32,884 nt of DNA. Source: Halobacterium sp. KA-4. GTDB taxonomy: Archaea; Halobacteriota; Halobacteria; Halobacteriales; Halobacteriaceae. The position numbers and the translations under genes were made by a program. A model generated the notes under the pieces. It was not told the origin of the DNA. It did not search any database and saw only the letters and a program-made list of their open reading frames with translations. The stretch covers positions 1 to 32,884 of the forward strand of contig NZ_JAJJZG010000027.1 of NCBI RefSeq assembly GCF_021028995.1, read 5' to 3'. Below are positions 1 through 32,216 of this stretch, piece by piece. Each line of letters begins with the position of its first letter. The first letter of the stretch is position 1.

Positions 1-136
1 CCTCGTAGATGTCCTCTGCACCGATTTCAGCGTTGTTGGCGAGGTTGAGAGAAACTTCCTCGTCAAGGCAGTTGACGAGGAAGTTAAGGAGCTGGTCCTC
101 GTGAATCTCACTGTCTGCTTGCTGGGTCGTAGACAC
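1..136 (-). CDS. ISH3-family transposase, N-terminal fragment
   Basis: The minus strand from a GTG at 136-134 reads about 45 residues without a stop to the window edge. The segment contains EIHEDQLLNFLVN and LANNAEIGAEDIYE, which I recognise as the conserved N-terminus of haloarchaeal ISH3-type (DDE) transposases. The C-terminal remainder and left end of the element lie outside the window. The GTG start is preferred because the reading frame matches the family N-terminus closely from there. This is a mobile element end, so the window boundary may be an assembly break at a repeat. I could not identify the terminal inverted repeat; it should lie between 137 and about 186. Confidence 0.85.
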   Translation of the reverse strand, partial: MSTTQQADSEIHEDQLLNFLVNCLDEEVSLNLANNAEIGAEDIYE

Positions 137-186
137 ACCTTCAGCAAGCAGACGTTCTAACTAAGCGGCTTTGTGATGTACTGGAC

Positions 187-2841: not shown

Positions 2842-4020
2842 TCAGTCCTCGATGCTCGCTAATGCGGACTGGACCGTATGGACTTCATACACCAACTCGT
2901 GTTTCGTGAACTTCCCTCCACTACGACCTTGGTTAATCTCGTTCCGGGAGGTGATTCCGAGCTGGCTGAGGGCAGCAAGATTGTCTCGAATCGACCGCAC
3001 GGACACAGGATCCTTCCCCGTCTCCTCACAGATTTTCCGGTAAATCGGGATAATATCCTGGGTGCGTGCCGGGGTCGCGTCCTCGTTTGTCATATTCATC
3101 AGCGTCCGGAGGAGAACCCGTGCGTGTTCGGAGAGATCTGAAATCCCTTCAGCGATAATCTCCTTCTCGATCTCCTCTTTCCCTTGCCTGACGTGTTCCT
3201 CTCGAACCATCTCATCGTGATTCTTTCTCGCAAGGTCACCCGCCATCAAGAGCAGATCGAGCGCCCGTCGCGCATCGCCCGACTCACGCGCTCCGTGAGC
3301 AGCACAGAGTGGGATAACATCCTCACTCAGCGTGTCGTCGTAGAACGCTACTTCTTTGCGCTGTTTGAGGACTTGTCGGAGCTGTCGTGCATCGTAGGCA
3401 GAGAAACTGACCACGCGCTCACAGAGGGATGAACGGACTTTCGACGAGAGATTCTCGCGGAACGTCAGGTCGTTCGAGATGCCGATGATGCCGAGGTTGA
3501 TGTCGGAGATGTTGCCGTTGTCCCGAGCTCGGGTGAGCTGGTAGAGAATGGAGTCATCGTTGAGATGGTCAACTTCGTCTAAGACGATGAGGACCGTTCC
3601 ATCGCAGGCATCTAGTTCTTCCCAGAGGAACTGGTAGACCTTCGACTGGGGGTAGCCGGTCGAAGCAATCTGGTTTTCGTGTGGCCGGAGCTGGTTGACA
3701 ATCTCAATAGCGGTCTGGTAGCTGGTGTTAAGGCCGTCACAGTTCACTTCGACGACGGTGACACTGACGCCGGGTACTTCCTGGACGTCCTCTTGGAGTT
3801 GGCCGAGGAGGTATCGAGTGGCGGCTGTTTTTCCGACCCCACTTTTCCCGTAGAGGAAGATGTTGGAGGGGTTCTCGTCGTTGATGACTGGCTGGAGGGC
3901 CGCGTGGAACTCTTCCAGTTCGTCGTCGCGGCCGACGAGTGTGTTCGGAGTGTAGTCCTCCGTGAGGGCGTCTCGGTCCCGGAAGATTTGGGTGTCCTGT
4001 TCGAACGTGAAGTCGGCCAT
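2842..4020 (-). CDS. orc1/cdc6: Orc1/Cdc6 family replication initiator
   Basis: The 392-aa product is an AAA+ origin-binding ATPase that recognises ORBs, opens the origin and recruits the replicative helicase. Walker A is GKSGVGKT (58-65), Walker B LDEVD (147-151), sensor 1 ISND (about 181-184) and sensor 2 GDARRALDLL (about 248-257). The C-terminal roughly 100 residues form the winged-helix DNA-binding domain. The reading frame extends upstream to 4221, but ATG 4020 (MADFTFEQ) is chosen: it gives the family-like N-terminus, and a TATA element (TTTATTG, about 4044-4050) lies about 27 nt upstream, fitting leaderless transcription. Length fits the family. ORB-like boxes lie downstream (2491-2798) and in its promoter region (4051-4141), so the gene is probably autoregulated and defines this replicon's origin. 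Confidence 0.95.
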   Translation of the reverse strand: MADFTFEQDTQIFRDRDALTEDYTPNTLVGRDDELEEFHAALQPVINDENPSNIFLYGKSGVGKTAATRYLLGQLQEDVQEVPGVSVTVVEVNCDGLNTSYQTAIEIVNQLRPHENQIASTGYPQSKVYQFLWEELDACDGTVLIVLDEVDHLNDDSILYQLTRARDNGNISDINLGIIGISNDLTFRENLSSKVRSSLCERVVSFSAYDARQLRQVLKQRKEVAFYDDTLSEDVIPLCAAHGARESGDARRALDLLLMAGDLARKNHDEMVREEHVRQGKEEIEKEIIAEGISDLSEHARVLLRTLMNMTNEDATPARTQDIIPIYRKICEETGKDPVSVRSIRDNLAALSQLGITSRNEINQGRSGGKFTKHELVYEVHTVQSALASIED

Positions 4021-4050
4021 GGCTGCACGTGGAAAGTATGAGACAATAAA

Positions 4051-4082
4051 CCCACCGACCACCCACTTCCGGTGTTTCCTCT
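4051..4082 (-). promoter_or_regulatory. ORB-like box in the orc1/cdc6 promoter
   Basis: The minus strand reads GAAACACCGGAAGTGGGTGG followed by another G-run. It is a variant of the boxes at 2491-2798, with CACCGGAA in place of CAGCGGAA, which is closer to the textbook haloarchaeal core. It lies immediately upstream of the TATA element of orc1/cdc6, so binding here could feed back on initiator expression as well as contribute to the origin. Confidence 0.65.
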
Positions 4083-4116
4083 GAAGAGGGATTATATAAA
4101 CAATCTCGGTTCTGAC

Positions 4117-4141
4117 AACCCCAGTACTTCCGCTGTTCTCC
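4117..4141 (-). promoter_or_regulatory. ORB-like box upstream of orc1/cdc6
   Basis: The minus strand reads GAGAACAGCGGAAGTACTGG and then a short G-run. The core AACAGCGGAA is identical to the three boxes on the far side of the gene. The G-tail is shorter, so affinity may be lower. It lies about 100 bp upstream of the initiator start. A TATATAA run is at about 4093-4099, between this box and the promoter-proximal one. Confidence 0.7.
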
Positions 4142-4262
4142 AAATCACTGTACTTGGATACGTTTCGCGCGCCATCCCCGTCTACTGCTTCCAAACCGTA
4201 GCACAAGCTGTACTGGCACATTCGCCGGTTAGCTTATGTGGCTCAGTCTGCTACACGCTCAC

Positions 4263-4549: not shown

Positions 4550-4756
4550 ATGGGTTCAAGCGCCACCTCACCCAGTTCCTCGATCTCGATCACGCGGGAC
4601 GGCGACTGGTATGTCGCCCGCGACGAGGAGACTGGCGTCACCAGCCAAGGCGAGACACGCGCCGAAGCCCTCGCCAACCTCAGCGAGGCCATCGACCTCT
4701 ACAACGAACCCATCGACGAAGAAGACGTCAGCGAGCCTGACGCCCCCTGGTTCTAA
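4550..4756 (+). CDS. hicB: HicB-like antitoxin
   Basis: The 68-aa product starts at ATG 4550. SSSISITRDGDWYVARDEET, then GVTSQGETRAEALANLSEAI, form the strand-strand-helix of the HicB partial RNase-H-like fold; 'G.TRAEAL.NL.EAI' is the family signature. A TATA-like CTTTTATCG at 4514-4522 sits about 30 nt upstream, so the transcript is probably leaderless. No DNA-binding domain is appended (short HicB type), so any autoregulation would need another factor. The acidic tail ends EPDAPWF. It lies upstream of a HicA-like gene, the usual haloarchaeal order. By family knowledge it neutralises the HicA mRNA interferase. Confidence 0.85.
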   Translation: MGSSATSPSSSISITRDGDWYVARDEETGVTSQGETRAEALANLSEAIDLYNEPIDEEDVSEPDAPWF

Positions 4757-4827
4757 CCTCCGCGGTCCCCGTTCTGTGGTGCGTTAATGGCACCGTGCCT
4801 TCGGAGCGCTTTTGTGCATACCCGGTG

Positions 4828-5085
4828 ATGGTTTGCGCAGTGAGTCGGCGTACGTACTCCGGTCGTGAGGTCGTGAAAGTCCTCACCCGGCATGGGTTCG
4901 AGACCACCGGGGGTGTCGGCAGCCACCGGAAACTCTCCTACAAGCATCCCGAAACCGGGGACGTCCGCCACGTCGTCGTGCCGATGCATGACGAGTTGGC
5001 TCCCGGAACACTTCGAGAGATCGCCGATCAGGCTGGCGCACACGACTACGATGCCTTCCTGGACTGGCTCGATAACACGCTCTGA
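4828..5085 (+). CDS. hicA: HicA-like mRNA interferase toxin
   Basis: From ATG 4828 the product is 85 aa; a GTG at 4840 (giving SRRTYSGREVV) would give 81 aa and matches the family N-terminus even better. The core is a small double-stranded-RNA-binding-like fold: YSGREVVKVLTRHGF, then GSHRKLSYKHPE with the expected catalytic His in GSH, VVVPMHDELAPGTLREIADQ, and a C-terminal helix. HicA toxins cleave mRNA. It follows hicB with a 71-83-nt gap, long for coupled genes. An upstream in-frame extension to 4795 is judged not to be coding because it adds nothing family-like. Likely role: plasmid stabilisation. Confidence 0.85.
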   Translation: MVCAVSRRTYSGREVVKVLTRHGFETTGGVGSHRKLSYKHPETGDVRHVVVPMHDELAPGTLREIADQAGAHDYDAFLDWLDNTL

Positions 5086-5114
5086 ATCCCGGTCTTCTTC
5101 ACCCCAGTAGCGGC

Positions 5115-5144
5115 CTACAGGATTCTCTATAGTATATCCTATAG
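5115..5144. repeat. CTATAG array A (three units, 12-bp period)
   Basis: CTACAG at 5115-5120, CTATAG at 5127-5132 and CTATAG at 5139-5144 lie exactly 12 bp apart, with flanks close to CCTATAGGA. This array sits between two convergent genes (hicA ending at 5085 and the zinc-ribbon gene ending at 5180), so it cannot be a promoter operator for either. That points to a structural role such as a partition centromere. It matches arrays at 6705, 7987 and 8860. Confidence 0.85.
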
Positions 5145-5179
5145 GCTCATTACGCCCGAGTGAAACGCCAGTAAGCCGG

Positions 5180-5644
5180 CTATGCGTCGGAGTCAGTGTC
5201 CTCTTGGAGGGCTGCTCGAATGTACTCACGGCGGTCATCCACGGTCTGTTGCACCCACTGGTAGGCCTGACTATACGCCTCATCATCGTACGAGAATCCA
5301 GAGTTCGCCTCCTCAGCCTCCGTCATCATCATCTGCATCAACCCTTTCCCGTAGCCAACCGCGTGAAATCGCAGGTGATTGACCTGACGGCCCACCTTGA
5401 TCCTCTCGCCAGGGCTTCCTTCCTCTGTCTGTCGGGTGTCGGGCGTCACACTCGATGTGATGGACGCGATCTCCTTGTCCAGCAGCGCAGTGAATCCCTC
5501 TAGGAACAACTCTTGATCGACGTCGTCGGGTATGCTACCGGCGAGGGAGCTTGGAGCCTTCTCGGTGAGTGGCTCCTTGCAGTGGTAGCACACGTGGACG
5601 CCGTCGGTGAGGACCTCACGGCCACACTGAGGACAGTACCTCAT
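5180..5644 (-). CDS. Zinc-ribbon protein of unknown function
   Basis: The 154-aa product starts at ATG 5644, with an in-frame stop two codons upstream. The N-terminus holds two CxxC knuckles (CPQCGR at 4-9 and CYHCKE at 19-24), a zinc ribbon. The rest is acidic and helical: ELFLEGFTALLDKEIASI, then a His-rich segment (NHLRFHAVGYGKGLMQMMM), and YSQAYQWVQQTVDDRREYI. This resembles adaptor or DNA/RNA-associated proteins, but no named family is recognised. It lies inside the segment bracketed by CTATAG arrays A and B, divergent from the DUF6414-like gene at 5745, so it may belong to the partition island. Confidence 0.75.
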   Translation of the reverse strand: MRYCPQCGREVLTDGVHVCYHCKEPLTEKAPSSLAGSIPDDVDQELFLEGFTALLDKEIASITSSVTPDTRQTEEGSPGERIKVGRQVNHLRFHAVGYGKGLMQMMMTEAEEANSGFSYDDEAYSQAYQWVQQTVDDRREYIRAALQEDTDSDA

Positions 5645-5744
5645 ACCTCATCATCGCCGGCGGCGAGCATAGTTCTCAGCGTGTCCTTGGATGTCGGAGT
5701 GTATTCGTGCTAACTATTATATGTTACACTAACAACTATTCTGC

Positions 5745-6590
5745 ATGGTTTCCATCTCCGATGCACCTGAGGTAGTGTACACAAACGACCAGATTATCGA
5801 CCGGCTGTTCAGCTATCTGAACGAAGGTGACATTCAGGAGGTTGTGGAACGCTCTCTTGATTCTGACACCACAGGCAAAGGCGGTGGGTTGAGCAAGATT
5901 ATCCGGCTCAAGTACACTAAGTCATCGACTGATGAGGAGGAGACAGAACTGATCCGGAAGTTCGATTCCATCGGGAAGTTCGCCGTTCTGCACGGTATTC
6001 TTCAGGATGACGACGACATCACATCCTTTGAGGAGATTACCGAGGATGATCGACGGGATCTGGAAAGCGGTGATTTCGTCGAATCTCATGGGCAAATTCG
6101 TGCATCACCGATTAACGATCTCCAAGATATGATTGGAGACATCAAGCCCTATCTGGATATGTTTGACTTCGATATGGAGTTCCAAGAACAGGGACAGACG
6201 TTCACCCTCTCGGATATTCAGGACTTCCTTGACGAACTAGGGTCTGGCGAGGATGTCTACACGGTCACTACTTCGACAAGTTCGATGGATGCCGACGTCG
6301 TGTTCTCGCTGGGTGAAGGAGAGTTGGACGGCCAGCTGTCGGAGTATACGGATTACTACGTCTTGGGCCGCGTGGAACACGTGTACAATCGAGGAGAGGA
6401 AGAGTGGCTGATGAACGTGATGGACTTGCTACCTGGAAATGACAGAGACACCCAGCAGGACCGGCGGATGTTCCTCAAGCAGATGGTATCGAGTTCATCC
6501 GAGCTGCTTGATCGGAACGTGACGGAGGACGACTTCAAGATTAGCCACCCAGACGTTCGTATCCGACCGGTTGCAATCTACCTGTATTAG
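5745..6590 (+). CDS. DUF6414-like cytoplasmic protein
   Basis: The 281-aa product starts at ATG 5745 with a TATA element (ACTATTATATG) about 27 nt upstream, suggesting leaderless transcription. The N-terminus (YTNDQIIDRLFSYLNEGDI, then a Gly-rich GKGGGLSK) and the central signature LESGDFVESHGQIRASPI resemble the DUF6414 layout (YLDEE..., ...GDFVE..G.LR.SPL). The C-terminal half looks like alternating strands with a LGRVEHVYNRGEEEWL segment. There is no signal peptide and no membrane segment. Biochemical function is unknown. It lies between zinc ribbon and parA, inside the CTATAG-bracketed island. Less-than-certain family call from pattern memory. Confidence 0.65.
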   Translation: MVSISDAPEVVYTNDQIIDRLFSYLNEGDIQEVVERSLDSDTTGKGGGLSKIIRLKYTKSSTDEEETELIRKFDSIGKFAVLHGILQDDDDITSFEEITEDDRRDLESGDFVESHGQIRASPINDLQDMIGDIKPYLDMFDFDMEFQEQGQTFTLSDIQDFLDELGSGEDVYTVTTSTSSMDADVVFSLGEGELDGQLSEYTDYYVLGRVEHVYNRGEEEWLMNVMDLLPGNDRDTQQDRRMFLKQMVSSSSELLDRNVTEDDFKISHPDVRIRPVAIYLY

Positions 6591-6704
6591 GAGGTTTCTG
6601 AATAGCGATTCCGTAATGTACACTGAATAAAGAGACCTTGATAATTCACTGGCGGTCGGGCTCGCATCCGTTGTGGCCAACCAGCGTCTGACGTGGTTTT
6701 ATAC

Positions 6705-6758
6705 CTATAGCAGACACTATAGGAACTACTACAGTGAATCCTATAGGGTGTCCTAAAT
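6705..6758. promoter_or_regulatory. CTATAG array B at the parA promoter (four units plus a degenerate fifth)
   Basis: CTATAG at 6705-6710 and 6717-6722, CTACAG at 6729-6734, CTATAG at 6741-6746 and a degenerate CTAAAT at 6753-6758 are spaced exactly 12 bp. The last unit overlaps the parA ATG (6757), and a TATA element (TTTTATAC, 6697-6704) directly precedes the first. The array therefore covers the expected transcription start of parA. This is an operator position and can double as a centromere, as in many par loci. Confidence 0.85.
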
Positions 6759-7605
6759 GACCGCACGAATCGCCAGCTTCCTGGATAAAGGTGGTACAGG
6801 CAAAACAACCAGCATCGCACACCTTGGCGTCGCCCTCACCCAGCACGGCCACGACGTCCTGCTCATCGACCTAGCCGGCAAACAGGGCGACCTCGCCAAA
6901 GCATTCGGCGTCTGGGGTGACGTCCAGGACGCCATCGAGGCCGACGAAGCGTGGCCCAACATCAGCACCGTCTTTGACGACGCCTGGCCAACCATCGCCG
7001 AGAAACTTGGCGACGACGCTGTCCACGACCTCGTCTATGAAACCGGCGAAGACGTTGACCTCATCCCCGCCCATCCCGGCCTCGATACGCTGGACGCCGA
7101 GCTGGGGAACATCGACGATGCCAGCGAGCGCTACTCACGCCTAGAGGCTTTCCTTGATGACTACGTGGAGGACCTCACCTACGACGTGGTCCTCATCGAC
7201 CTCCCTGGAATGTCGAACAACGTCACATACAACGGCCTCTGGGCCGCCCGACACGTCCTTGCACCTGTAGAGATGGGGCCCTTCGAGGCCGAGCAGGCTG
7301 GCGCACTCCGTGAAGACCTAGAGAAGATCCGGTCGAACTTCGGGATCGACGTCGAACTCGTGATGGTCCTCCCGAACAAGGTTGATGACCGCACCAAACT
7401 TGCCACCGAGTACTTGACAGCGTTCCACGAGGAGTACCCCGACGCCATCGCCCCCGAGTACATCCCGTACTCACAGGACATCCGCAACGCCACCCAGCAG
7501 GGCATGACTGCCTTCGAGCTGGAGGACCCGAGCACGACTGCACAGCGCGCCCGTGAGGCATACCTCGCCGACGCTGCCGCGCTCCTTGAACGCGTGGAGG
7601 ACTAA
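6757..7605 (+). CDS. parA: ParA-family partition ATPase
   Basis: The 282-aa product has the deviant Walker A box KGGTGKTT (11-18), the A' segment LLIDLAGKQGD (35-45) and Walker B VVLIDLPG (about 144-151). These are hallmarks of the ParA/MinD-type ATPases that bind DNA nonspecifically and move plasmid copies through a centromere-bound partner. There is no N-terminal HTH extension, so it is the small type (ParA Ib/SegA-like). Operator control would therefore fall to the partner protein. The start overlaps CTATAG array B. The next gene begins 3 nt after its stop, forming a two-gene operon. Confident as ParA; partner assignment is from context. Confidence 0.93.
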   Translation: MTARIASFLDKGGTGKTTSIAHLGVALTQHGHDVLLIDLAGKQGDLAKAFGVWGDVQDAIEADEAWPNISTVFDDAWPTIAEKLGDDAVHDLVYETGEDVDLIPAHPGLDTLDAELGNIDDASERYSRLEAFLDDYVEDLTYDVVLIDLPGMSNNVTYNGLWAARHVLAPVEMGPFEAEQAGALREDLEKIRSNFGIDVELVMVLPNKVDDRTKLATEYLTAFHEEYPDAIAPEYIPYSQDIRNATQQGMTAFELEDPSTTAQRAREAYLADAAALLERVED

Positions 7606-7608
7606 ACC

Positions 7609-7992
7609 ATGGACGAAGACCTCGAACAACTACGCGAGCAGACCAGCACTGGCGACCGCCTCGATGAGGCGAGCGCCGAGCAGGAACAGCACGAGCTTCA
7701 GGAAGCAATCCTCGCAGAACTGGAGGCTATTGACGCCGGTGAGAAGCAGAAGACGGTGAGCGTGTGGGACGGCCCGATGGCCGCACTCCTCAGCGCGCTC
7801 GAAGACCGCGACGACGATCTGGTTGAGACCGGCGAGCAGCTGCGGGACGCGCTGGGCATCGAAGACGAGAGTGACCCAGATCGGAGCGAGGTCCTCCGAC
7901 TTGCGCTCCGGCTCGGTTTCGAGACTGCGGCTCCCGACAAGCTCGATGCAACACGGAGTGCGGTTGAAGAACACGCCAGCCAACGCCTATAG
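7609..7992 (+). CDS. Ribbon-helix-helix-like centromere-binding partner of ParA
   Basis: The 127-aa acidic protein starts 3 nt after parA. The N-terminal two-thirds are helical/coiled (EQHELQEAILAELEAI) and the C-terminal segment DRSEVLRLALRLGFE resembles the helix of a ribbon-helix-helix DNA-binding domain (short strand then 'R.E.LR.AL..G'). Small acidic RHH proteins downstream of short ParAs commonly bind the centromere and stimulate ParA ATPase. Its stop codon (TAG 7990-7992) lies within the first unit of CTATAG array C. Inference: this is the protein that reads the CTATAG arrays. The ParB-like gene opposite is the competing candidate. Confidence 0.7.
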   Translation: MDEDLEQLREQTSTGDRLDEASAEQEQHELQEAILAELEAIDAGEKQKTVSVWDGPMAALLSALEDRDDDLVETGEQLRDALGIEDESDPDRSEVLRLALRLGFETAAPDKLDATRSAVEEHASQRL

Positions 7993-8016
7993 CATTTCCT
8001 ATAGGATACTCTATAG
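7987..8016. repeat. CTATAG array C (three units, 12-bp period)
   Basis: CTATAG occurs at 7987-7992, 7999-8004 and 8011-8016, exactly 12 bp apart, each within a longer near-palindrome (TCCTATAGGA at the middle unit). It lies at the 3' end of the RHH partner gene and just beyond the 3' end of the convergent ParB-like gene, so like array A it is not in a promoter. This supports a centromere role rather than only transcriptional control. Confidence 0.85.
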
Positions 8017-8050
8017 TCTATGTGTGGCGTTCCTATCCAGAACAGGCCTG

Positions 8051-8767
8051 CTATGCAGGAACACCGGGGAATCCATCAGCATCCTCACCCCACCGATTGC
8101 GCAGCCGGCGAATCGTTTCCTGCTGTGTAGCTTCATCTAACTGGACATCATCCCAGTCCAGATGGCAACTCGAAAAGATCGCGGCCGCTTCCCAGTCATC
8201 GATGTACATACTGCGGCATTGGACGGTATCAAGGCCAGCAACGCAGGCAGCCCACACGCGCTTGTGACCATCCATGATCAGGAATTGGCCATCCTCGGTG
8301 ATTTGCACAAGCGGTGGCATCGGCAGACACTCATCGCGTTCAATCATGGCGATGAGCCGGAGCTCCTCCTCCGCGTTGAAGCGCCGCGAATGATACGGTG
8401 CGGGGACAAGCTTCGATAATGGTAGTTCTCTTGTGTCGATCTCACCGGTTTTCTTGAGACGTGATTGGGGAAAGGCGTAGAATCGTACACCTCGGTCGTG
8501 GAGATCGCTGAGGAGGAGAGGATTGGCACCACAGTAGTACGGTAAGGCATCTTCCAGGGTGTCTTGATAGACGACGATGATGACATTGTCATCGTCAGGG
8601 TACTCGGGGTTGTCTTCAGCGAGTGTGAGCCTCGATCTGAGGTTCCACTCGCTGGCGGTCTGTGGTGGCGTATTGACGACAACCGCTTCGCCCGGTGGAT
8701 CATCGCGGTCGATGACAATATCGCCTGGGCTGAACGGCCGCGACTCCGAGCTACTCTGGTCGGCCAT
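8051..8767 (-). CDS. ParB/Srx-fold domain protein
   Basis: The 238-aa product starts at ATG 8767. Its N-terminal half (FSPGDIVIDRDDPPGEAVVV and following) is a module I have seen in haloarchaeal plasmid proteins, without known function. The C-terminal half is ParB/sulfiredoxin-like: ELPLSKLVPAPYHSRRFN, LIAMIERDECLPMPPLVQ and FLIMDGHKRVWAACVAGL. The DGHKR element corresponds to the GERR-type motif of ParB, which binds a nucleotide. No HTH is evident, so it may be a ParB-related regulator rather than a classical centromere binder. It converges on the ParA operon, with array C between their 3' ends and array D upstream. Probably part of the partition module. Confidence 0.8.
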   Translation of the reverse strand: MADQSSSESRPFSPGDIVIDRDDPPGEAVVVNTPPQTASEWNLRSRLTLAEDNPEYPDDDNVIIVVYQDTLEDALPYYCGANPLLLSDLHDRGVRFYAFPQSRLKKTGEIDTRELPLSKLVPAPYHSRRFNAEEELRLIAMIERDECLPMPPLVQITEDGQFLIMDGHKRVWAACVAGLDTVQCRSMYIDDWEAAAIFSSCHLDWDDVQLDEATQQETIRRLRNRWGEDADGFPGVPA

Positions 8768-8859
8768 CGCCGCTTACTGTTGACTGAACCATCTTGTAGT
8801 TATAGGCTGATAGCACCGTAGCAGACCACAGCTAGCTGGTAGAGAGTCGCAGGAACGGC

Positions 8860-8889
8860 CTATATCTAATCCTATAGAGAATCCTGTAG
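8860..8889. promoter_or_regulatory. CTATAG array D upstream of the ParB-like gene
   Basis: CTATAT at 8860-8865, CTATAG at 8872-8877 and CTGTAG at 8884-8889 keep the 12-bp period. The array is about 93 bp upstream of the ParB-like start on the minus strand, so it can control that gene as well as complete the bracket around 5115-8889. The gene-free interval 8768-9091 otherwise holds only a possible gene remnant. Confidence 0.78.
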
Positions 8890-8978
8890 GATGACATTTA
8901 GACTCCTGATGCATGAATAGTGCAGTCTCTGCCATCACATCGATAGAGGACCCTCTCCAGTAGTTGAGACTGGTCGTC

Positions 8979-9091: not shown

Positions 9092-9463
9092 ATGTCCATC
9101 GACCGAGATACCTTCGAGAACACGAGCGAGGACGAACTCGTGGACCTCTCCGTCCCCGATCAAGTCCTCGGGTTTCTCGTCGCTAATGAGGATCGCGCGT
9201 TCAAGGCCCGCGAAATCGCGTCCCAGATCGGCGTCGACGAGGGTGCGGTCAGTACGGGGCTCTCACGGTTGAAGAACCGAGACCTCGTGGAACACAAGGC
9301 AACGTATTGGGCGGTGACCGATGACGAGGAACGTCTCGACGGGTATAGCGGCTACGAACGAGCGACCGCGCTGTTCAACGAGCAACTCGGTACAGAGGAT
9401 GAGGAGTCCTGGCGTGAACACGCACCAAGTGAGCCGCACCCCAGCATCGAGGACGAACAGTGA
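9092..9463 (+). CDS. Winged-helix (MarR-like) regulator, putative antitoxin
   Basis: ATG 9092 (MSIDRDTFENTSEDEL) gives 123 aa; two upstream in-frame ATGs (9062, 9071) lie in less family-like sequence. The core LVANEDRAFKAREIASQIGV, then DEGAVSTGLSRLKNRDLVEH and a wing, is a winged HTH. The tail (GYSGYERATALFNEQLG) and an acidic end are typical of a haloarchaeal pair in which this gene precedes a PemK/MazF-like toxin. The stop overlaps the toxin's GTG by 4 nt, indicating translational coupling. Likely a DNA-binding antitoxin that autoregulates the pair. Confidence 0.85.
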   Translation: MSIDRDTFENTSEDELVDLSVPDQVLGFLVANEDRAFKAREIASQIGVDEGAVSTGLSRLKNRDLVEHKATYWAVTDDEERLDGYSGYERATALFNEQLGTEDEESWREHAPSEPHPSIEDEQ

Positions 9464-9810
9464 CCAACGAAGAGACCCAAATTTTCGAGCGTGGCGACGT
9501 CGTCTACGGGGATGATCCGTTCAAAAGCGAGGAAGACGCTCGTCCCTGGCTTATCCTCTCGAACCACGACGGGCGTCCGTTCCACGGCGAGCAGTATCTC
9601 GCGGTGACGCTCACAACGAAATCATGGATGGACGGACTAATCGAGATTCCAGCGGAGAGTTGGCGTCGTGGTGGGACCCCGGATGAAAGTCGAATTGTTC
9701 CGTGGGGAGTCCAATCGATCGACCACGAAGATATCGACTTCTGGCAAGGCCGTCTTGCCAGCGATCCCGTTGATCAGGCGGTGGCTGCGCTCGTCGAAGA
9801 ACTACAATAG
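9460..9810 (+). CDS. PemK/MazF-like toxin
   Basis: The 116-aa product starts at GTG 9460, overlapping the preceding stop (GTGA). FERGDVVYGDDPF, the segment ARPWLILSNHDGRPFHGEQY and YLAVTLTTKSW match the SH3-like barrel of PemK/MazF ribonucleases: 'GDVV..dpp', 'RPwlvlSn', 'vv.ltT'. Family members cleave mRNA. Length is normal. With the HTH gene it forms a toxin-antitoxin pair, the second such module within 5 kb of the partition locus, which is consistent with plasmid stabilisation. Confidence 0.82.
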   Translation: MTNEETQIFERGDVVYGDDPFKSEEDARPWLILSNHDGRPFHGEQYLAVTLTTKSWMDGLIEIPAESWRRGGTPDESRIVPWGVQSIDHEDIDFWQGRLASDPVDQAVAALVEELQ

Positions 9811-30560: not shown

Positions 30561-31979
30561 TTAGGGTCGTTCACTCTGGCGAGCGTGGGAGTGTGTTGTT
30601 CGGGTGACTGCGGTCCGGCAAACAAGCGTCGCGAGCACGGCGATTGCGACCCGCGTAACGATCGCCAGTGAGACGCTTGCGAGTGCGGCCAGCGTGGTTG
30701 TCAGCGAGAACATAACGACAACGGGTAGCACCCAACCAACGGCCAGCACCCATGGCGTCGCGAACTTACTGAGGCGGCCAGCGCCGCGCTGGAACTCCGT
30801 GACAGCGTCGTCGCGGAGCACCCAGCCGACGATCGCGAGAAACGCGAACAAGCCAACTGTCAGCATCACGTCGACGACCGGGCCGGACACGAATCGAAAT
30901 GCCGGCCCGGCAAGCGCCAACCCACTGCCAGTCACCGCAATCACCAGCGTCACGAGCAGCGTTGCCAGCCGCCGGGACATCTCATAGTTGTCGACAAGGG
31001 TCGCAACGGGCGTTTCAAGCAGATTAATGCCGCTTGTCACAGCTGCCAGCAGGACGGTGAAGAAGAAGACGGTTGCAACGAGAGTGCCGCCGGGCAGCGA
31101 ACTGAACGCGGTTGCGAGTGCTACGAACAGCGCGCCAGGGCCGCCCTGTCCTGGGCTGATCCCCTGGGAGAACAACAGCGGCAAAACGACGAGCCCAGCC
31201 AAGACGCCGATGACTGTGTTCGAGACCGCAATAACGAGGGTGTCACGCGGGAGGGAAACATCCTCGTCGAGGTATGAGGCGTACGTGAGCATCGCGCCGG
31301 CACCCAGCGAGAGCGTGAATAATGCCTGTCCGGCTGCTGGTCCGAGGACGTCGAAGAAGTGTGTGGCGAGGTAGTCGCCATCGAAGTCGAGATAGAACGC
31401 GTAGCCGGCGGCGGTGTTGGGTTGGGTGGCTGTCCAGACAGCAAGTCCACCGAGCAACACGACGACTGCGGGGAGCATAATTTTCGAGGCGCGTTCGATA
31501 CCCTGGCTCACGCCGAAATAGACGATTATGGCTACGATTGTGAGGAACAGTAGGTGGAAACCGACTGCCGGGAGGCCGTGGCTTGCGTGGCGGAAGTACT
31601 GCTGTGGCTGCGAGAAGTATGCGCCGGTCGGTGACAGTAGTGTGTATCTGAGGATCCAGCCGCCGACGACCGAGTAAAACGACAGCATTACGGCGGTTGT
31701 GATGACGTTGAATGCGCCCAGTGGTGTGCCCCACCGGGAGCCGATGAGCGCGCGGAGCGCACCGATTGGCGTTTGGCGGCCACGTCGGCCAAGCACGAGT
31801 TCAGCGAGCAACCCGGGGACGCCAATCCCGACGACGAGCAGCAAGTACATTACGAGGAAAGCGCTGCCGCCGTTGTCAGCAGTCAACCATGGGAACCGCC
31901 AGATGTTCCCCAACCCGGCTGCACTGCCGACGGCCGCAAGTACGAATCCTACGTTCGAAACCCACGAATCTCGATCCAT
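30561..31979 (-). CDS. NSS-family sodium-dependent transporter
   Basis: The 472-aa product has 11-12 helices and the NSS (SNF, LeuT-type) signature in helix 1, NVGFVLAAVGSAAGLGNIWR followed by FPWL (about 8-32), where Na+ and substrate backbone contacts are made. Helix 6/8-like segments include FTLSLGAGAMLTYASYL. NSS proteins import amino acids or related solutes with Na+. It is preceded by a 49-aa membrane peptide (start 32216) with 87 nt between, in the same direction. The operator palindrome at 32244 lies upstream of both. Substrate cannot be read from sequence; the signature SAAGLGNIWRFP is family-general. Confidence 0.95.
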   Translation of the reverse strand: MDRDSWVSNVGFVLAAVGSAAGLGNIWRFPWLTADNGGSAFLVMYLLLVVGIGVPGLLAELVLGRRGRQTPIGALRALIGSRWGTPLGAFNVITTAVMLSFYSVVGGWILRYTLLSPTGAYFSQPQQYFRHASHGLPAVGFHLLFLTIVAIIVYFGVSQGIERASKIMLPAVVVLLGGLAVWTATQPNTAAGYAFYLDFDGDYLATHFFDVLGPAAGQALFTLSLGAGAMLTYASYLDEDVSLPRDTLVIAVSNTVIGVLAGLVVLPLLFSQGISPGQGGPGALFVALATAFSSLPGGTLVATVFFFTVLLAAVTSGINLLETPVATLVDNYEMSRRLATLLVTLVIAVTGSGLALAGPAFRFVSGPVVDVMLTVGLFAFLAIVGWVLRDDAVTEFQRGAGRLSKFATPWVLAVGWVLPVVVMFSLTTTLAALASVSLAIVTRVAIAVLATLVCRTAVTRTTHSHARQSERP

Positions 31980-32066: not shown

Positions 32067-32216
32067 TCAGGTTAGTTTGGTTCCGATCCAGAGAAGAACT
32101 AGAATGGGAAGCAATGGCAGGAGTAGAACTCCTAATGCCGTAGCGATCAAATACCCGACGACGCTCATCTCAGCGTTCGAATAATCCGTTCGACGACGAC
32201 TTACAGCGTCCGTCAT
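32067..32216 (-). CDS. Small membrane subunit (MetS-like) of the NSS transporter
   Basis: This 49-aa frame is short but coherent. ATG 32216 is followed by MTDAVSRRRTDYSNAEMSVV, a single hydrophobic helix (GYLIATALGVLLLPLLPILV, then LLWIG) and a short KLT tail. Position and form match the small single-helix subunits known for some prokaryotic NSS transporters (MetS with MetP). There is no clear TATA because the operator at 32244-32261 occupies the promoter position, about 28-45 nt upstream of the start. It is the first gene of the operon with the transporter. Confidence 0.72.
   Translation of the reverse strand: MTDAVSRRRTDYSNAEMSVVGYLIATALGVLLLPLLPILVLLWIGTKLT

Follow-up and report, generated by a model that had tools for sequence, protein, structure and literature searches.

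In a contig of Halobacterium sp. KA-4 (NZ_JAJJZG010000027.1), we examined arrays of the hexamer CTATAG lying around a parA gene; the whole stretch analysed, 32,884 nucleotides, is called the window below. We consider it probable (about 0.8) that these arrays serve as centromere and operator of a plasmid partition locus, in which a Walker-type ParA works together with a small centromere-binding protein, the 127-amino-acid (127-aa) product of the gene directly behind parA. By sequence comparison, the locus most likely represents a haloarchaeal form of ParA-type plasmid partition that is widespread and apparently undescribed, with the arrays as its centromere and operator. The initial annotation of the window knew of no described haloarchaeal centromere with this sequence. 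Similarly, our search of open-licence PubMed Central papers turned up neither a described haloarchaeal plasmid centromere nor any account of these arrays.

Four arrays with an exact 12-bp period and 13 units in total were borne out on re-reading the window (no strand is assigned to them). Array 1 (5115-5144; CTACAG, CTATAG, CTATAG) lies between the 3′ ends of a HicA-like gene and a zinc-ribbon gene. Array 2 (6705-6746; CTATAG, CTATAG, CTACAG, CTATAG) is followed by a degenerate fifth unit, CTAAAT, from 6753 to 6758. Array 3 (7987-8016) has three perfect CTATAG units, is present at the equivalent position in relatives and is our candidate downstream centromere. The stop codon of the 127-aa gene is inside its first unit (CTA TAG), and the remaining arrays are intergenic. 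Array 4 (8860-8889; CTATAT, CTATAG, CTGTAG) is found 93 bp upstream of a ParB-like gene. Allowing up to two mismatches, we counted 10 CTATAG-N6-CTATAG pairs in the window, every one inside the arrays, compared with 0.23 expected and with two at most in 100 dinucleotide shuffles of the window. Seven triples scored at least 15/18, while 60 order-1 Markov simulations gave none. Among the spacings tested (7-30 bp), near-perfect pairs occurred only at 12 and 24 bp. All nine CTATAG hexamers of the window are within arrays and only one further array is present in the rest of the 3.34-Mb genome (contig C26, 12487-12516). The C26 array (genome G000; L007:8488-8517) is directly behind a winged-helix gene, and its contig has a parA of another family. 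We also observed that the two outer arrays of the window (5114-5146 and 8858-8890) are mutually inverted copies over 33 nt (85%), partly covering the spacers. Their sequences suggest a recent duplication or an invertible segment.

The parA gene (6757-7605, + strand) encodes a 282-aa Walker-type ATPase with the sequence DKGGTGKTT (Pfam AAA_31, 2.4e-19; CbiA, 5.3e-16; PHROG ParA-like, 7e-39). The deviant Walker A motif KGGxxK[S/T] is present near the N-terminus as FLDKGGTGKTT and starts at about residue 11, which leaves no room for an N-terminal helix-turn-helix (HTH) domain. Type Ib ParA proteins are small ATPases of about 200-250 aa without an N-terminal HTH region (PMC9178275). The length of this ParA is slightly over that range; by motif and size, its sequence identifies it as a type Ib ATPase. 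The candidate centromere-binding protein (7609-7992, + strand) was recognized by alignment, structure prediction and co-variation with the array word. Its gene is separated from the parA stop codon by a 3-bp gap, and the gene order is identical in nearly all relatives. A TATA-like box, TTTTATA (6697-6703, + strand; read from sequence), directly precedes array 2 and belongs to the putative parA promoter. Upstream of it is the element GTCTGACG (6686-6693, + strand), which is conserved in all array classes, and the order of element, TATA box, array and ATG is kept in relatives. In many of them, repeat arrays likewise occur on both sides of the operon, before parA and after the partner gene. The initial annotation described the arrays as bracketing a partition island. 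They are indeed present, but their arrangement goes beyond mere bracketing: the key arrays coincide with the parA promoter and with the stop codon of the predicted binding-protein gene.

The GTCTGACG element (CGTC-T-GACG) was seen a few bases 5′ of the parA TATA box in most loci, whatever their array class. In 45 of 61 loci, its TCTGA core is no more than 110 bp from parA, compared with a background of 8%, and this is irrespective of array class. In the genome of the window, GTCTGACG also precedes a parA of another family (C6:47112), an Era-like GTPase gene (C54:129850) and a dapA-like gene (C22:85099). It could be a regulator site or a promoter element.

We then compared the locus among 391 Halobacteria genomes. 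Homologues of the 127-aa protein were found in 57 of these genomes, and 28 plasmid records encode one annotated as a hypothetical protein. Almost all are directly behind a parA. In about 25 related loci, down to about 42% protein identity, CTATAG arrays occur at two fixed places. The first place is about 900 bp upstream of the start of the partner gene, which puts the array downstream of the TATA box and ahead of the parA start. The second is the stop codon of the partner gene, and CTATAG often provides the stop itself. Triple arrays, sought as three units with up to two mismatches, were detected in 31 of the 391 genomes. They were present in all 23 genomes with a W-type protein (mostly defined by the segment QKT-[VILM]-S-[VIA]-WD) but in only eight of the 368 others, where a single match was usual (Fisher test, 9e-31, a value uncorrected for relatedness that overstates independence because the sets share descent). 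CTATAG arrays had a density of 0.257 per kb in W-type loci, compared with 0.0026 per kb where the protein belonged to another class. Across 75 distinct arrays comprising 276 units, conservation was 1.3-1.55 bits per position in the units and at most 0.21 bits in the spacers, as expected of binding sites held at a fixed distance.

Hardly any CTATAG arrays occur outside the replicon that bears the cassette. On a 42-kb plasmid of Actinarchaeum halophilum, 27 of 28 CTATAG hexamers are in nine arrays, all intergenic or overlapping a stop codon, and a single weak array match was found in the remainder of its 3.7-Mb genome. On this plasmid (L104), perfect arrays at 31448-31477 and 32160-32189 flank a RelE/ParE-RHH (ribbon-helix-helix) toxin-antitoxin operon, which suggests that this operon is under the control of the array-binding protein as well. 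Elsewhere, arrays were seen with no W-type cassette found nearby (G337:C26:35189, G001:C3:54226 and G093:C2:79294; the latter two genomes share one). They are possibly captured arrays or the sites of another protein.

The array word changes together with the class of the 127-aa protein. Relatives at 40-47% protein identity, whose ParA can be up to 72% identical, have no CTATAG-12 arrays and have other arrays at the equivalent two places. The alternative words are GTTTGC (6-bp period), CGTATA (6 bp), CATATG (12 bp), CTATAG (13 bp) and GTATCT (13 bp). On a maximum-likelihood tree of the protein, the six word classes require six changes, where the least possible is five and the mean after shuffling is 27.9. 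We aligned the predicted recognition segment of the protein (KTVSVWD at 48-54 in the window) and read the outward residues at alternate positions. The alternating residues of such a segment enter the major groove in ribbon-helix-helix proteins of the Arc/MetJ/omega kind. T-S-W-D pairs with CTATAG at 12 bp, T-A-R-D with GTTTGC and T-S-R-D with CGTATA; in the 13-bp classes, T-T-Y-D pairs with CTATAG and N-T-R-D with GTATCT. We took the rule from the first set of loci and tested it on 13 others, whose genomes had not been part of the initial draw. The segment QKT[VI]S[VI]WDG went with CTATAG-12 in six of six, none of the seven R-type loci had it, and the R-type loci with readable arrays carry the other word that was predicted. 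Plasmid PL47 of Haloquadratum walsbyi encodes a Y-type protein and has the 13-bp form of CTATAG upstream of parA. Two words can also coexist: 4 kb separates a CTATAG cassette from a CGTATA cassette on contig G363:C63, and the genome of the window has one of each on two contigs.

These pairings point to a larger proposal, to which we give about even odds. The cassettes would form an undescribed haloarchaeal partition family in which a three-residue reading head sets the centromere word, and switching of the word would create plasmid incompatibility groups within one cell. The code, as part of the same proposal, would read T-S-W for CTATAG/12, T-A-R for GTTTGC/6, T-S-R for CGTATA/6, T-T-Y for CTATAG/13 and N-T-R for GTATCT/13. 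A simpler rule, in which W alone specifies CTATAG, was rejected, as proteins with SFWDG, SIWDK and SVWDT occur without CTATAG arrays.

Loci retrieved by ParA alone extended the survey. Most of those with ParA at 40% identity have a 13-bp period. Among such distant cassettes (pNG400, pHME505, pKBTZ03_437, L227, L228, L230-L236 and L238; ParA about 40% identical), the 13-bp-period arrays are mostly GTATCTG-like and the proteins are of NLT type. By the period measure used, no clear 12- or 13-bp array was found at the expected places in five loci with ParA at 57-63% identity (L219-L223) or in the pR1SE2-like loci L216, L225, L226 and L229. The architecture is therefore not universal.

Two monomer models of good confidence gave the 127-aa protein an extended segment at 43-54 followed by helices. 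Near its N-terminus is the sequence GDR (15-17); among 50 members, at least 90% share R17, and most of them have G15 before it. The locus probably works like an RHH partition system, and the label RHH-like given in the initial annotation is a plausible inference; the fold itself was not confirmed. A PDB sequence search with the protein retrieved nothing related, and histone-fold matches of the core model were discarded with E above 1. No homologue was found among phage records or in an IMG/VR scan, and a viral origin was rejected on this ground. Sixty-six IMG/VR contigs have one exact triple each; none encodes a cassette protein within the fetched stretch, so these triples look like chance matches.

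In the mechanism that we propose, the ParA ATPase (6757-7605) would be the motor and the 127-aa protein (7609-7992) would bind the arrays as dimers, with one dimer per CTATAG palindrome. With a spacing of 12 bp, or about 1.14 helical turns, each dimer would be rotated by about 50 degrees relative to its neighbour, and adjacent dimers would touch each other and load cooperatively. The array at the parA promoter and that at the operon end would make up a two-sided centromere, and the former would additionally repress the operon. Further arrays on the replicon might be more copies of the centromere or might give shared control over neighbouring maintenance genes. The N-terminal tail with the conserved R17 may contact ParA and stimulate ATP hydrolysis, so that plasmids would trail ParA across the nucleoid. 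The initial proposal, in which a small dimeric DNA-binding protein is loaded onto the arrays of a partition locus, is strongly supported by the comparison: array positions are fixed, units are conserved while spacers vary freely, and word and protein co-vary.

Several observations weigh against the partition reading and the word code. No W-type protein was detected in eight genomes with a triple array, and the four inspected have no adjacent cassette. The 13 out-of-sample loci are kin of the training loci. SFWDG pairs with CATATG and SIWDK with a CACATAG 12-bp array, and the SVWDT protein (L097) is without an array. Pfam RHH_1 matches were weak, reached 8 of 50 members, covered the second helix only and had a best E of 0.016. 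Foldseek gave no significant structural match for the two models, with Arc appearing only at E 6. In addition, minimal loci have two arrays of just 3-4 units each, and omega requires at least four contiguous repeats for full ATPase activation (PMC9499535).

The arrays might instead be purely transcriptional operators, through which the 127-aa protein autorepresses parA and neighbouring genes, with the centromere elsewhere. The location of array 2 between the TATA box and the parA start fits this explanation, as do array 4 at 93 bp upstream of the ParB-like gene and an array about 80 bp upstream of the RelE/ParE toxin-antitoxin operon of the Actinarchaeum plasmid. However, the second array, which is the most constant, marks the 3′ end of the operon, a place that requires no promoter. 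Several other arrays are flanked by the 3′ ends of convergent genes (5115 here; 31448 in Actinarchaeum), and these locations are a better fit to a centromere. Moreover, omega systems use identical sites for both jobs (PMC9499535). We regard a purely transcriptional role as unlikely.

That the ParB-like protein (8051-8767), rather than the 127-aa protein, binds the arrays is very improbable. In favour of this reading, the protein matches ParB_N weakly and its gene is preceded by an array, but no HTH part was detected in it, and the few plasmid homologues of the protein mostly match the N-terminal half only. The gene is absent beside the cassette in nearly all array loci, including that of the near relative G018, and the array word follows the 127-aa protein. 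As it is not conserved with the cassette, it was rejected as the binder. Replication-origin iterons of an Orc/Cdc6 or Rep protein were likewise rejected and have very little probability: an orc1/cdc6 gene is present at 2842-4221, but its homologues are near only a minority of cassettes at variable distance and are not consistently linked, while the arrays track parA and the small protein at places fixed relative to both and change their word with the latter.

Among known systems, the centromere-and-operator reading finds its nearest layout in several bacterial plasmids. In par2 of the E. coli plasmid pB171 (parC1-parA-parB-parC2), parC1 and parC2 reportedly flank the operon and have 6-bp repeats. 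The pB171 locus resembles ours in having two centromere regions beside the parA-parB operon (PMC4270457). It differs in word and period and is bacterial; the comparison covered layout, word and period. The delta/omega/parS system of pSM19035 from Streptococcus, with an RHH ParB, also combines a short ParA and a small DNA-binding protein with contiguous short repeats, and several of its sites coincide in part with the promoters of par and of further maintenance genes (PMC9499535). In contrast, its parS consists of 7-bp non-palindromic heptads (WATCACW) in runs of 7-10, whereas here 6-bp palindromes recur every 12 bp in runs of 3-6 and one array is at the operon 3′ end; the binding proteins have no detectable sequence relation. 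TP228 (ParF-ParG-parH) shares a type Ib ParA, and the N-terminal tail of ParG has an arginine finger, Arg19, in region 15-23 (PMC5393062). The conserved N-terminal Gly-x-Arg here (GDR, 15-17) appears by analogy to resemble that region. Unlike the present protein, with 127 aa and a fold that is only predicted, ParG has 76 aa and a proven RHH fold. We know of no second downstream array in TP228.

Two archaeal systems were also compared. SegAB of the Sulfolobus chromosome similarly has a ParA-like ATPase and a small binding protein, and palindromic sites precede its operon (PMC5120986), but the SegB sites are imperfect palindromes rather than tandem arrays, and the system is chromosomal. With SegAB in view, the profile of the 127-aa family matched no related chain among PDB sequences. 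AspA-ParB-ParA of the Sulfolobus plasmid pNOB8 likewise partitions an archaeal plasmid by means of a ParA motor. It uses three proteins, with a winged-HTH AspA and one 23-bp palindrome with spreading (PMC5120986), compared with two proteins and fixed-period arrays here. In terms of canonical ParABS (ParB_N and HTH at parS), the partner protein had no ParB_N match in a Pfam-type scan.

If the partition reading is right, a cassette that occurs on many named plasmids, with its partner annotated as hypothetical, gains a concrete candidate centromere and binding protein. The natural series of words and proteins would offer a ready-made system for studying the joint evolution of a centromere and its reader, and would make it possible to build halophile vectors that are stable and compatible with one another.

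The other genes of the island, as initially listed, proved to be neighbours. The ParB_N-like gene (8051-8767, − strand; 238 aa) has a PF02195 match of 5.4e-4, which is below cut-off, and is an accessory neighbour. The zinc-ribbon gene (5180-5644, − strand) and the DUF6414 gene (5745-6590, + strand; PF19952, 1.6e-24) are neighbours only; both are present at the cassette of G018 and at no more distant cassette locus. In G018 (Halobacterium salinarum DSM 3754), the nearest relative found, the sequence across parA and the partner gene is about 96-98% identical to the window; this identity ends at 8014, at array 3, beyond which the DNA is wholly different. The ParB-like gene and array 4 are therefore outside the shared cassette. 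Array 1 is present there too. Thus parA and the 7609-7992 gene of the initial list are conserved and the ParB-like, zinc-ribbon and DUF6414 genes are not, and sequence comparison defines the conserved system as parA, the 127-aa protein and two arrays only. The parA of G018 is split, and an insertion sequence with an overlap of 5 bp (window 7396-7400) is the apparent cause. The 183 bases flanking the interruption (C15 end and C9 start) are identical to window positions 1-183. The partition region is flanked by a HicA-like toxin gene that a HicB-like frame precedes (about 4553-5085) and by a winged-helix gene overlapping a PemK/MazF-like gene (9092-9810).

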